A stretch of 64,000 nt of DNA from assembly GCF_009193185.1 (NCBI RefSeq), contig NZ_VUKF01000019.1, positions 1-64,000 on the forward strand, read 5' to 3'. A model generated the notes under the pieces. It saw only the letters and a program-made list of their open reading frames with translations, was not told the origin of the DNA and made no database searches. The translations under genes and the position numbers were made by a program. Source of the stretch: Georgenia thermotolerans (lineage in GTDB: Bacteria; Actinomycetota; Actinomycetes; Actinomycetales; Actinomycetaceae). Shown one piece after another: positions 47,330-50,671 of the stretch. Within the stretch, counting starts at the first letter, position 1. Every line of letters starts with the position of its first letter.

Positions 47330-47423
47330 GCGCTGCGGGGGCGGCGCCCGCCGAGCCGCACTCCGCGGGCGCGGCGTCGGCCGACCCGCACCCCGCGATC
47401 CGGCGTCCTGGCACCATGGCGCC

Positions 47424-47909
47424 ATGGACGTGACCGTCAGCGCCGCCGACGTCGCCGAATGGCGCGCGGTCAGGGAGGTGCGCCTGCGCGCGCTCGCCGC
47501 CGACCCGGGGGCCTTCGGCTCCACCCTCGCCCGCGAGCTGGCCTTCGACGACGGCGTGTGGCGTGAGCGCGTCGCAGCCGGCCGGACCTTCCTCGCCCGG
47601 CGCGACGGCGTCGTCGTGGGGATCGCCTCCTTCTACGCCGAGCCCGGCCGCCAGGACGAGCGCGAGCTGGTCGGCATGTGGGTGACGCCGGAGGCGCGCC
47701 GGACCGGGGTGGCGCCCGCTCTCGTCGAGGCGGTGCGCCGGGCGGCCGCGGCCGAAGGGGCCGCCCGGCTGACCCTGTTCATCGCCGAGGGCAACGAGCC
47801 GGCCCGCCGGCTCTACGAGCGCCTCGGCTTCCGGTCCACCGGGGAGGTGCAGGAGCTGCAGTCCGACCCCTGCCGGGGGCAGGAGCGCTACGCCCTCGCG
47901 CTCAGCTGA
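47424..47909 (+). CDS. GNAT family N-acetyltransferase
   Basis: 161 residues. N-terminal RAVREVRLRALAADPGAFGS is typical of a large actinobacterial GNAT group. The acetyl-CoA loop is TPEARRTGVAPALVEAV, followed by LTLFIAEGNEPARRLYERLG. The substrate is unknown. It ends just before the small-gene region. Confidence 0.92.
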   Translation: MDVTVSAADVAEWRAVREVRLRALAADPGAFGSTLARELAFDDGVWRERVAAGRTFLARRDGVVVGIASFYAEPGRQDERELVGMWVTPEARRTGVAPALVEAVRRAAAAEGAARLTLFIAEGNEPARRLYERLGFRSTGEVQELQSDPCRGQERYALALS

Positions 47910-47966
47910 CCTCCCCGATACACCGGGACGTCGCTCTCGCTCGCCGCGGGCGCCGTCCCGCCGCCG

Positions 47967-48113
47967 TCACCGCCCCCGAGCGCCCTGGCGCGCGCGAGGC
48001 AGGAACCGCGTCCCCTCCGGTCGCCGGCCCAGGCGGCGGACCCGGGCGGCGTCGAGCGCCTCACGGATGAGCTCGGCGCTGCGGTACTCGTGCAGCCGGA
48101 GCCAGTGCTCCAT
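47967..48113 (-). CDS. Small WLxLH-LIREA family protein, copy 1
   Basis: 48 residues, beginning MEHWLRLHEYRSAELIREAL, with a basic tail. The start has an excellent Shine-Dalgarno sequence (GAAGGAGAACGAC before ATG). It is a clear paralogue of the 45-residue protein at 49095: both share W-L-x-L-H-[DE]-x-R-x-x-[DE]-L-I-R-E-A and a basic C-terminus. The conserved part would form an amphipathic helix. No known family is recognised. It lies 37 bases past the 48151-48414 reading frame and is probably transcribed from the SoxR-controlled promoter. Confidence 0.65.
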   Translation of the reverse strand: MEHWLRLHEYRSAELIREALDAARVRRLGRRPEGTRFLPRARQGARGR

Positions 48114-48150
48114 GTCGTTCTCCTTCGAATGTGGGTCGATGCCCGGCCGG

Positions 48151-48414
48151 TCAGCGGGCGGTGCGGTGCCGGGCGCGGTTCGCGGCCACCGCGGGCTGGT
48201 CGTCGCGCCGAGGGTGGCTCACAGGCGCCGAGGGCGGGTCGTCGCGCCGAGTGCGCCCGTTCGCGTCATGGGCGTGTGGTGCAACACCCGCGCGTGACGC
48301 GAACGGGCGCGGTCGCGGACGATCGGCCGTCGGCTCGGCCACCCGGGCGTGGAAGTCGCCCTCGCGGCGGTGGGTCAGGGTCGCGGCCGGGCCGGCGGCG
48401 TCGTCGGTCATCAT
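48151..48414 (-). CDS. Possible small protein directly downstream of the SoxR box
   Basis: 87 residues if translated in full. It starts 43 bases after the predicted SoxR-dependent start site, with GGGAGAACGAC before ATG ATG, the same leader as the next small gene. The first ~30 codons have good G/C third positions (MMTDDAAGPAATLTHRREGD). The rest crosses the inverted repeat at 48253-48310 and has poorer codon use, so the C-terminal half may be eroded or not coding. Confidence 0.4.
   Translation of the reverse strand: MMTDDAAGPAATLTHRREGDFHARVAEPTADRPRPRPFASRAGVAPHAHDANGRTRRDDPPSAPVSHPRRDDQPAVAANRARHRTAR
48253..48310. repeat. 58-bp inverted repeat
   Basis: Perfect 16-bp arms GCGCCCGTTCGCGTCA (48253-48268) and TGACGCGAACGGGCGC (48295-48310). 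The 26-bp loop contains its own weaker symmetry. Nearby GTCGTCGCGCCGAG occurs twice (around 48204 and 48240). This is a REP- or MITE-like palindrome, or an internal attenuator in the transcript from the SoxR promoter. Confidence 0.85.
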
Positions 48415-48463
48415 GTCGTTCTCCCAGGTCAGGTGGCGTGCCGCGGCGGCGGCACCTGAGAGG

Positions 48464-48494
48464 ACGATGCAAGCTCAAGTCGACTTGAGGTCAA
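48464..48494 (-). promoter_or_regulatory. SoxR box in a MerR-type promoter
   Basis: CTCAAGTCGACTTGAG (48474-48489) is a perfect 16-bp palindrome nearly identical to the core of the E. coli soxS operator. On the minus strand it lies between -35 TTGACC (48494-48489) and a -10 CATCGT (48469-48464) with a 19-bp spacer, the long spacing expected for MerR-family activation. It would drive the small genes at 48414 and 48113. Confidence 0.88.
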
Positions 48495-48566
48495 GCCGGC
48501 GCGGCCCGCGCCGGGCCGACCCGTCGCCGGCACCGACGACGGGGCCACGCCCGCTACGGTGGGCCG

Positions 48567-49001
48567 GTGCCCCCGACCGCGACGCTGACCATCGGCGAGC
48601 TCGCCGCGCGGTCCGGCGCCGCGCCGTCGGCGCTGCGGTACTACGAGTCGCGCGGGCTCATCTCCTCCGAGCGCACCGCCGGCAACCAGCGCCGCTACCC
48701 CCGGGCGATGCTGCGCCGGGTGGCCTTCATCCGCACCGCCCAGCGGGTCGGGCTCTCCCTCGAGGAGATCGCCGAGGCGCTCGCCGGGCTGCCCGAGGGC
48801 CGCGCCCCGGCGCGGGCGGACTGGGCCCGGCTCTCGGCCACCTGGCGCCCCCGCATCGACGCGCAGATCGCCCGGCTCGAGCGGCTGCGGGACAAGCTCG
48901 ACGGCTGCATCGGGTGCGGCTGCCTCAGCCTGGACCGGTGCGCGCTGAGCAACCCCGACGACGAGGTCGCCGCCCGGGGCCCGGGCGCCGTCTTCCTCTG
49001 A
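48567..49001 (+). CDS. soxR: Redox-sensing MerR-family activator SoxR
   Basis: 144 residues. N-terminal MerR helix-turn-helix (LTIGELAARSGAAPSALRYY), dimer helix, and the [2Fe-2S] cluster motif CIGCGCLSLDRC with Cys114, 117, 119 and 125, as in SoxR. Oxidation of the cluster by redox-cycling compounds switches on target promoters. A SoxR box lies 78 bases upstream on the divergent promoter. A -10-like TACGGT six bases before GTG 48567 suggests a leaderless own transcript. Confidence 0.95.
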   Translation: MPPTATLTIGELAARSGAAPSALRYYESRGLISSERTAGNQRRYPRAMLRRVAFIRTAQRVGLSLEEIAEALAGLPEGRAPARADWARLSATWRPRIDAQIARLERLRDKLDGCIGCGCLSLDRCALSNPDDEVAARGPGAVFL

Positions 49002-49048
49002 GACCGGTTCAGCGGCACAGCGGTGCCGCCGCCGGCACATGGGCAAGC

Positions 49049-49086
49049 GACAGGACCGCCGACCCGTGCGGGTCGACGGTCCTGTC
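49049..49086. terminator. Bidirectional terminator after soxR
   Basis: GACAGGACCG-C-CGACCC pairs with GGGTCG-A-CGGTCCTGTC around GTGC: a 16-bp stem with one mismatch. It lies between soxR and the convergent small gene ending at 49095. Confidence 0.85.
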
Positions 49087-49094
49087 GGTCCGGC

Positions 49095-49232
49095 TCACAG
49101 GCCGGCGTTGCGGTGACGCCGCAAGTAGATGGTCGAGCGTCGCTCGCGCGAGGCGCCACGGCGCCGGTGCGCCGCCTCTGCCTCGCGGATGAGGTCGAGC
49201 GCCCGAAGGTCGTGCAGCTCCAGCCAGTTCAT
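49095..49232 (-). CDS. Small WLxLH-LIREA family protein, copy 2
   Basis: 45 residues, beginning MNWLELHDLRALDLIREAEA, then an Arg-rich tail. CGGAGAAG precedes the ATG. It overlaps the stop of the 37-codon gene upstream (ATGA), so translation is coupled. Paralogue of the protein at 47967. The predicted amphipathic helix plus basic tail could bind nucleic acid, membrane or a protein partner; function unknown. Confidence 0.65.
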   Translation of the reverse strand: MNWLELHDLRALDLIREAEAAHRRRGASRERRSTIYLRRHRNAGL

Positions 49233-49342
49233 CTGCTTCTCCGTCTCATGTACTGCTGCTTGGTCACGGGAGCGCGGTACGGGGTGGGCATCTTGGCCAC
49301 CGGCGCGCCCCGCCGGGTGGTGCGAGCGGTGCGAGGATCCAT
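49229..49342 (-). CDS. Very small basic protein coupled to the WLxLH gene
   Basis: 37 residues, strongly basic, beginning MDPRTARTTRRGAPVAKMPT and ending in MRRRSR. A strong Shine-Dalgarno sequence (GAGGAAGGA) lies six bases before the ATG at 49342. Its TGA overlaps the next ATG. The last codons use rare AGA three times because they also form the ribosome-binding site of the next gene. It may be a leader peptide controlling that gene rather than a functional protein. Confidence 0.5.
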   Translation of the reverse strand: MDPRTARTTRRGAPVAKMPTPYRAPVTKQQYMRRRSR

Positions 49343-49507
49343 GGGTGTCCTTCCTCCGGTGGGACCCAGCGCCGGGCGGTCGCTGGGAGAGCGGGGCGCG
49401 TCGATGCGCGCGCGGTCGCGGCCCGCGGGGGGTGCGGGGCGTGATCGAGGGGGTGCGGTGGAGGCCGCGTGGCGGGACGTCGGCGGAGGCGTCCCCCGCC
49501 GGATGCG

Positions 49508-49624
49508 TCAGGCGGTCGTCATGCGGGCGCTGCCCGCGATGCCGGCGGGGGCGACCCCGCGGACGGCGCAGCCGACGACCTCGCTGCCGGTGCGGCACAC
49601 GATCTCGAGGTGGTCGGTGAACAT
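49508..49624 (-). CDS. Possible 38-residue protein
   Basis: A short frame beginning MFTDHLEIVCRTGSEVVGCA with almost all third positions G or C. The ribosome-binding site is weak (GAGG three bases upstream). It lies 73 bp from the divergent threonine dehydratase start and 166 bp before the small-gene pair. It contains two Cys; no family recognised. Confidence 0.4.
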   Translation of the reverse strand: MFTDHLEIVCRTGSEVVGCAVRGVAPAGIAGSARMTTA

Positions 49625-49696
49625 GACCTCATCCCACCAGGGGGCCGCCGCGGGCCGCAACGTATTTTCCGGCGTCGTCGGTGGTTGACTCCTCGC

Positions 49697-50671
49697 ATGG
49701 CCGACCTGCCCACCTACGACGACGTCCGCGCGGCCGCCGACCGCCTGCGCGGCCATGCCCACCGCACCCCGGTGCTCACCTCCCGCCGGCTGGACGCCGA
49801 GCTCGGGCTGCGGGTGTTCGTCAAGGCCGAGAACTTCCAGCGGGTCGGCGCCTTCAAGTTCCGCGGCGCGTTCAACGCGCTCTCGTGCTTCACCCCCGAG
49901 CAGCGCCGCGCCGGGGTGGTGGCCTACTCCTCGGGCAACCACGCCCAGGCGGTCGCCCTCGCCGCCCGGCTGCTCGACGTCCCGGCCACGATCGTCATGC
50001 CGCTGGACTCCCCGGCGAGCAAGCTCGCCGCCACCCGCGGCTACGGCGCGGAGGTGGTCACCTACGACCGCTACACCGAGGACCGCGAGGAGATCGGCCG
50101 GGTGCTGGCCGCCGAGCGAGGCCTGACCCTCGTCCCGCCCTACGACCACCCCGACGTCATCGCCGGGCAGGGCACCGCCGCCCAGGAGCTGCTCGAGGAG
50201 GTCGGCGCGCTCGACGCCGTCGTCGCCCCGCTCGGCGGCGGCGGGCTGCTCGCCGGCACCGCGCTGGCCACCCGGGCGCTGAGCCCGGGCGCCCGCGTGT
50301 ACGGGGTGGAGCCGGCGGCCGGCGACGACGGCCGGCGCTCGCTGGCCGAGGGGCGCATCGTCCACATCGACGCGCCGCGCACGATCGCCGACGGCGCGCA
50401 GACGCAGCACCTCGGCGAGCTGACCTTCCCCATCCTGCGCCGCGAGGTCACCGCCGTCCTGACCGCCACCGACGCCGAGCTGGTCGCGGGCATGCGCACG
50501 TTCGCCGCGACGCTCAAGATCGTCGTCGAACCCACCGGCGCCCTCGGCCTGGCGGGGCTGCGCCAGCTCGCCCCCGAGCTGGCCGGCAAGCGCGTGGGCG
50601 TCATCGTCACCGGCGGCAACGTCGACCTCGACCGCTACGCCGCCCTGCTCGGCGGGTCGCTTCCGGCCTGA
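49697..50671 (+). CDS. Threonine/serine dehydratase-like PLP enzyme (or serine racemase)
   Basis: 324 residues, fold-type II PLP enzyme. PLP lysine in VGAFKFRGAFNA, phosphate-binding loop PLGGGGLLAG, YSSGNHAQAVALAARLLDVP, and C-terminal VIVTGGNVDLDRY. There is no regulatory ACT domain, so it is the short catabolic/racemase form (TdcB or serine racemase-like). It deaminates threonine/serine to 2-oxo acids or interconverts D/L-serine. Start ATG 49697. Confidence 0.92.
   Translation: MADLPTYDDVRAAADRLRGHAHRTPVLTSRRLDAELGLRVFVKAENFQRVGAFKFRGAFNALSCFTPEQRRAGVVAYSSGNHAQAVALAARLLDVPATIVMPLDSPASKLAATRGYGAEVVTYDRYTEDREEIGRVLAAERGLTLVPPYDHPDVIAGQGTAAQELLEEVGALDAVVAPLGGGGLLAGTALATRALSPGARVYGVEPAAGDDGRRSLAEGRIVHIDAPRTIADGAQTQHLGELTFPILRREVTAVLTATDAELVAGMRTFAATLKIVVEPTGALGLAGLRQLAPELAGKRVGVIVTGGNVDLDRYAALLGGSLPA

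Follow-up and report, generated by a model that had tools for sequence, protein, structure and literature searches.

In Escherichia coli, soxR and soxS form a divergent pair with the SoxR box inside a 19-bp promoter spacer, and SoxS is an AraC-type transcription factor. To our knowledge, what SoxR switches on is either a second regulator, an efflux pump or a redox enzyme. In Streptomyces coelicolor, six direct targets are bound by SoxR and soxR itself is not autoregulated (PMC4146615). These targets comprise oxidoreductases, a monooxygenase, an NAD-dependent epimerase/dehydratase, a flavoprotein reductase and an ABC transporter, and none of the six is described as a small protein in the available part of that report (PMC4146615). 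Among the listed titles and abstract openings of the open-licence SoxR literature, none mentions a SoxR-driven small protein.

Here we describe a locus that shares with the E. coli pair a soxR gene divergent from a single small target and a box set in a 19-bp spacer, and with the S. coelicolor regulon an actinobacterial SoxR, whose direct binding to its targets is established there and predicted here from sequence. Unlike SoxS, its 48-aa product has no match in Pfam or NCBIfam at E values up to 1, hence no AraC-type helix-turn-helix domain, and is predicted to form one helix followed by a tail. The locus lies within the 64,000-nucleotide stretch of DNA that was analysed (the window) and comprises the following features:

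48567..49001, plus strand: soxR, MerR-family redox sensor of 144 aa with a GTG start (TIGR01950, cysteine cluster CIGCGCLSLDRC)
48489..48494, minus strand: -35 hexamer TTGACC, five of six positions as in TTGACA; identical hexamer in G002 and G003
48474..48489, minus strand: SoxR box, perfect 16-bp palindrome CTCAAGTCGACTTGAG, exact match
48464..48469, minus strand: -10 hexamer CATCGT at 19-bp spacing, read from the sequence; spacing kept in G002 and G003
48151..48414, minus strand: 87-aa ORF between the promoter and the 48-aa ORF, a doubtful gene of poor conservation
48248..48315, no strand assigned: inverted repeat (arms of 34 nt) within the 87-aa ORF; similar copies on C28, C64 and C105
47967..48113, minus strand: 48-aa small protein, predicted helix 2-29 plus basic tail (alignment A1, identity to G002, dN/dS, AlphaFold2)
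49095..49232, minus strand: paralogue of 45 aa located beyond soxR and not downstream of the box; 98% identical in G002, dN/dS 0.04

The plus-strand gene product matches TIGR01950 over its full length (E 5.2e-63, 211.1 bits, above the curated equivalog cut-off of 116.9), and CIGCGCLSLDRC fits the C-x2-C-x-C-x5-C spacing of the cluster motif that SoxR proteins carry near the C-terminus; by these sequence features, the product is SoxR. Since the adjoining gene is soxR, the reading of 48474-48489 as a SoxR box becomes much stronger. On the minus strand, TTGACC (48494-48489) is followed by a 19-nt spacer (48488-48470) and by CATCGT (48469-48464), which bears out the earlier note, where a perfect box between these two hexamers had been claimed with no mention of the soxR neighbour. 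Within the window, CTCAAGTCGACTTGAG is the sole match at up to three mismatches (chance mean 0.11; at least one match in 11 of 100 shuffles), and the single exact match to CTCAAGTNNACTTGAG in the 4.64-Mb genome is the soxR-adjacent box. A scan for sigma-70 promoters and terminators between 47800 and 49300 returned none of either, the 19-bp promoter lying outside the 16-18 range of the scan.

Among the nine genomes of the genus, three encode a SoxR above the TIGR01950 cut-off: the window genome (G000), G002 and G003. All three present the over-long 19-bp spacer with its palindromic box, a layout typical of promoters activated by SoxR, and all three combine box and promoter with a divergent small ORF of one and the same family. 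The hexamer TTGACC and the 19-nt spacing recur in G002 and G003, with -10 elements CATCGT and CATGCT, respectively, and the soxR-adjacent box carries 0, 1 and 2 mismatches in G000, G002 and G003. We consider the regulatory part of our reading, as predicted from these sites, well supported. The G002 locus is syntenic; the neighbourhood in G003 differs, with a Ku gene (PF02735) on one side and a convergent helix-turn-helix gene on the other. No gene other than the small ORF was found behind the G003 box; this ORF has 52 codons if read from a GTG and 50 if read from the ATG that lies two codons further. The distance from the -10 hexamer to the start of the small ORF is 350 nt in the window, 212 nt in G002 and 47 nt in G003.

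The 48-aa protein is 83% identical to its G002 counterpart. Between these two genomes, dN/dS is 0.38 in the coding frame, as against 1.95 and 1.21 in the two remaining forward frames; an antisense frame, at 0.20, falls below the sense value, in a comparison that counts only 17 substitutions. AlphaFold2, run on the family alignment A1, predicts a single helix at residues 2-29 (mean pLDDT 85-97 in the first three ten-residue blocks) and a low-confidence tail, with a pTM of 0.45. A profile search of the PDB yielded just four kinase entries, none with an E value better than 0.42, and Foldseek found no PDB match for the model, a single helix being a poor query. The small ORFs of the window gave no match to known Pfam or NCBIfam families; the one NCBIfam hit, for the 87-aa ORF, was at chance level (E 0.17).

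The latter ORF had been put forward in the earlier note, together with the 48-aa one, as a second small target. In G002, the correspondence is limited to the first dozen codons or so and to RHRTAR, a stretch close to the end, and does not extend to the stop; the middle is a stretch missing from G002, which holds the inverted repeat 48248-48315, and no counterpart was seen in G003. The G002 mismatch, the G003 absence and the inserted repeat lead us to reject the 87-aa ORF as a conserved product, and it is doubtful as a gene; it may be a leader ORF or an untranslated leader. As G002 and G003 keep the family of the 48-aa ORF and not the 87-aa ORF, we take the former as the output, so that one of the two proposed targets stands. 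Both ORFs do carry the claimed leader GGAGAACGACATG in the window, but its identity is not conserved, since GGAGACCCGCATG precedes the 48-aa ORF of G002. The inverted repeat itself, with similar copies on contigs C28, C64 and C105, resembles a small dispersed repeat.

The family to which the 48-aa ORF belongs, which we call WLxLH, was defined on the best 20 matches (alignment A1; E 0.0072 or better), drawn from the nine genomes of the genus and from G015, of another genus of the same taxonomic family; the window ORF is one of the defining rows, and the rows L151 and L152 contribute 35 residues each from full ORFs of 86 and 89 aa. All 20 rows have W4, L7, H8, R11, L15, E18 and A19, giving the motif W-x2-L-H-x2-R-x3-L-x2-E-A, followed by a tail that, as aligned in A1, is basic throughout (net charge +2 to +7). 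Most members are preceded by purine-rich leaders resembling ribosome-binding sites. One member matched UPF0561 (E 0.0082), which we take as chance. Two short basic proteins from actinobacterial genomes of 9-10 Mb, L166 (59 aa) and L167 (65 aa), match the profile weakly (E 1.5e-4 and 3.3e-4) with LH-x2-R-S-x-(D/E)-L-I-R-E-A; they lack W4, and the kinship is insecure. A class-wide search gave matches at E 0.01 or better in 11 of 296 genomes, our own included, and seven of the ten outside it are probably due to chance, being located within long open frames; as at most 24 candidates were scored per genome, absence elsewhere in the class is weak evidence.

The genomic contexts of the paralogues are diverse. 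The resident 45-aa copy adjoins a GNAT gene and a gene for a PLP-dependent enzyme (PF00291), which we read as threonine dehydratase. In G000c and G002c, the paralogue overlaps the 3' part of a methyltransferase gene, from which a gene for an ArsR-type regulator diverges; we take the methyltransferase gene for arsM, Pfam showing the methyltransferase domain alone. Three others (G000d, G002d and G007c) stand after an ORF with an HMA domain, and the first two also precede an ABC-transporter ATPase gene, which looks shortened in G002. A DUF4097 gene follows the paralogue in G003b and G005 (by Pfam) and in G007 (by its gene start). The HMA domains of the G000 and G002 neighbours score over the Pfam cut-off with no cysteine at all, which weakens the metal link of the HMA-side paralogues as a whole; the G007 one keeps its CxxC. 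Thus, cysteine-free HMA-domain proteins directly preceding a WLxLH paralogue are found at L153:2141-2368 and L154:2159-2386, the G007 counterpart with CxxC being L157. Very small ORFs, a WLxLH member among them, recur in the genus near shared flanking genes (window 49095-49700, L043, L047, L048 and L049), among them the PLP-dependent enzyme and GNAT genes, and several of the small-ORF starts overlap the stop of the preceding ORF.

These contexts render a stress link suggestive for six of the 20 members (three SoxR-linked, two arsenic-type and one beside an HMA domain with cysteines), doubtful for two and unsupported for the rest. The paralogues beside presumed arsM/ArsR and HMA genes would agree with a role in toxicant stress; for most other paralogues, a redox or metal context is unsupported. 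In a free tree of the family, the three soxR-linked small ORFs are split, which suggests that SoxR may have recruited the family twice independently; a single clade is not rejected (AU test, p 0.29), and the G003 ORF sits on a long branch.

The SoxR-driven transcript may also work as an RNA, either as a leader or as a small regulatory RNA, the ORFs being incidental. Between the -35 hexamer and about the twelfth codon of the 87-aa ORF, G002 has almost the same DNA, which does not apply to the remainder of that ORF, and the minus strand has no larger credited gene from the box up to the GNAT gene, which is convergent; both observations would suit such a role. We regard this explanation as rather improbable: the 48-aa family occurs at unrelated loci with its invariant residues, mostly after leaders of ribosome-binding type, the leader sequence differs in G003 while the protein motif is kept, and Rfam gave no match at E up to 1 over 47400-49800.

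The direction of the promoter was examined at a broader scale. In a search of the order, 100 of the 297 genomes gave a total of 113 SoxR matches above the cut-off, 112 of these loci lying outside our own genome; a script oriented 109 of the 112, leaving out L222, L240 and L268, and L280 ends at a contig end. A box within four mismatches lies near soxR in 83 of the 109 oriented loci, the best box being worse in the other 26. At these 83 boxes, a -35 hexamer with at least five of six positions of TTGACA faces the divergent gene in 62 cases and soxR in none, and a -10 hexamer having A as its second and T as its sixth base was counted 56 times in the divergent direction and once towards soxR; the commonest -35 is TTGACC (48 of 83). 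In the window, the hexamers score 5 and 3 of 6 in the divergent direction and 1 and 0 of 6 towards soxR. From the order-level counts and the window scores together, it follows that the promoter faces the small genes. The earlier claim that it reads into very small genes is therefore supported as regards its orientation, both by this geometry and by the presence of small genes only behind the box.

These same counts bear on the idea that the box chiefly regulates soxR itself, with the small ORF as a passenger. The distances from box to GTG (77 nt for the window, 99 nt for G002 and, provided that the GTG is the start, 19 nt for G003) would allow it, and a potential upstream soxbox accompanies about 13% of the soxR genes in 55 Streptomyces surveyed, according to the part of the survey available (PMC4146615). 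Nevertheless, autoregulation is quite improbable here, given the poor soxR-facing hexamers of the window and the lack of a soxR-facing -35 at all 83 order-level loci, as counted at the box geometry only; moreover, a passenger would not be expected to survive a change of neighbourhood such as that of G003.

As regards further sites at up to two mismatches, G000, G002 and G003 have 1, 0 and 1, respectively, apart from the box next to soxR (1, 1 and 0 for a reversed-pattern control), and the six genomes of the genus without soxR hold one site in all (control, six). At three mismatches, our own genome has 15 sites and the control 22. With counts near the control level, no second SoxR site stands out; more targets may exist elsewhere in the genome, since the best box exceeds four mismatches at 26 of the 109 order-level loci.

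What soxR faces in other genera is of a different nature. We inspected the nearest upstream genes at 30 actinobacterial loci from another set of 80 soxR loci, where the readable divergent genes encode short-chain dehydrogenases, transketolase, MFS pumps and a quinone-oxidoreductase-like protein. At the order level, a rough script classing, from which L300-L302 were excluded, assigned the 109 loci to MFS (12) and transketolase (5), both by motif, other (83) and none found (9), and the protein starts of the third class, some rows of which are possibly spurious ORFs, point to more MFS pumps, dehydrogenases and ferredoxins, as well as VOC and DsbA-like proteins and one superoxide-dismutase-like protein. 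The WLxLH model found no convincing member at the order-level loci (best E 0.22) and none at the other 80 (best E 0.76). That SoxR usually drives pumps and enzymes, as had been stated beforehand, agrees with what these promoters face, and the small-protein output would therefore be particular to this genus.

Several of these loci deserve mention in their own right. At L230 and L238, both of one genus, the first listed ORF behind the box belongs to the WhiB family (PF02467, E 2.6e-14 and 4.1e-14 over the first 60 residues), a possible SoxR-to-WhiB relay by analogy with soxR-soxS. At L249, L252, L263, L264, L267, L275, L276, L300 and L302, a box-like site (0-4 mismatches) precedes a gene read as ferredoxin-like from protein starts such as MTYVIALPCVDVKD, and a redox partner of this kind is a possible SoxR output there. 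At L193, a SoxR-like box is followed by an 80-aa basic small ORF and then by an aldo/keto-reductase-like gene, as read by eye; this ORF, a further small basic one within a likely SoxR transcript, has no match to the WLxLH model at E up to 1. Finally, a box-like site precedes a transketolase N-terminal gene at L071, L077, L080, L198, L203, L205, L206 and L220, in several actinobacterial families.

These transketolase pairs have in common with our locus the nearest SoxR sequence and a box shortly upstream of soxR, and they differ in the divergent gene, which encodes the N-terminal part of a transketolase (Pfam was run on the L071 start only). In the SoxR tree, which includes 34 of the 47 intended rows, the proteins of G000, G002 and G003 form one clade (support 98/93), and the nearest SoxR outside the genus by tree path is L071 (81% identical), at a fork without resolution. 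The simplest history compatible with these sequences would be one SoxR lineage whose output turned into a small protein inside the genus. A decayed locus, where the loss of a former enzyme gene left an orphan promoter with a small gene behind it by chance, would suit the transketolase gene facing L071, the patchy presence of soxR in the genus and the resident paralogue next door, but is hardly probable, because box, promoter and small ORF are kept in two different neighbourhoods and the closest grouping of the 48-aa ORF is with the paralogues linked to the methyltransferase gene rather than with the 45-aa resident (support 94/78, on few columns).

The likely reading, in our view, is that of a two-gene redox switch, in which oxidised SoxR would activate a short mRNA, with the 48-aa helical protein as its conserved product. 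A redox-cycling compound would oxidise the [2Fe-2S] cluster of SoxR, which, bound at the box, would remodel the 19-bp-spaced minus-strand promoter; the induced mRNA, starting near 48457 on the minus strand, would presumably be translated into the 48-residue protein, with its N-terminal helix, an invariant face made up of W4, L7-H8, R11, L15 and E18-A19, and an arginine-rich tail. This face may dock on a cellular partner, be it a protein, a nucleoprotein or a membrane surface, as a stress accessory factor, a role that we put forward tentatively beside membrane, nucleic-acid and other functions. A bolder version, in which the entire SoxR response of the genus would consist of this one target, acting alone or via RNA polymerase, the ribosome or the membrane, and in which the sister copies would likewise serve arsenic- or metal-type operons, seems doubtful.

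If true, a conserved small protein behind a SoxR promoter would represent a kind of output different from a regulator, a pump or an enzyme. Furthermore, since the inducers of SoxR form a defined class, it would open a way into a family of tiny proteins present in several operons of one genus.
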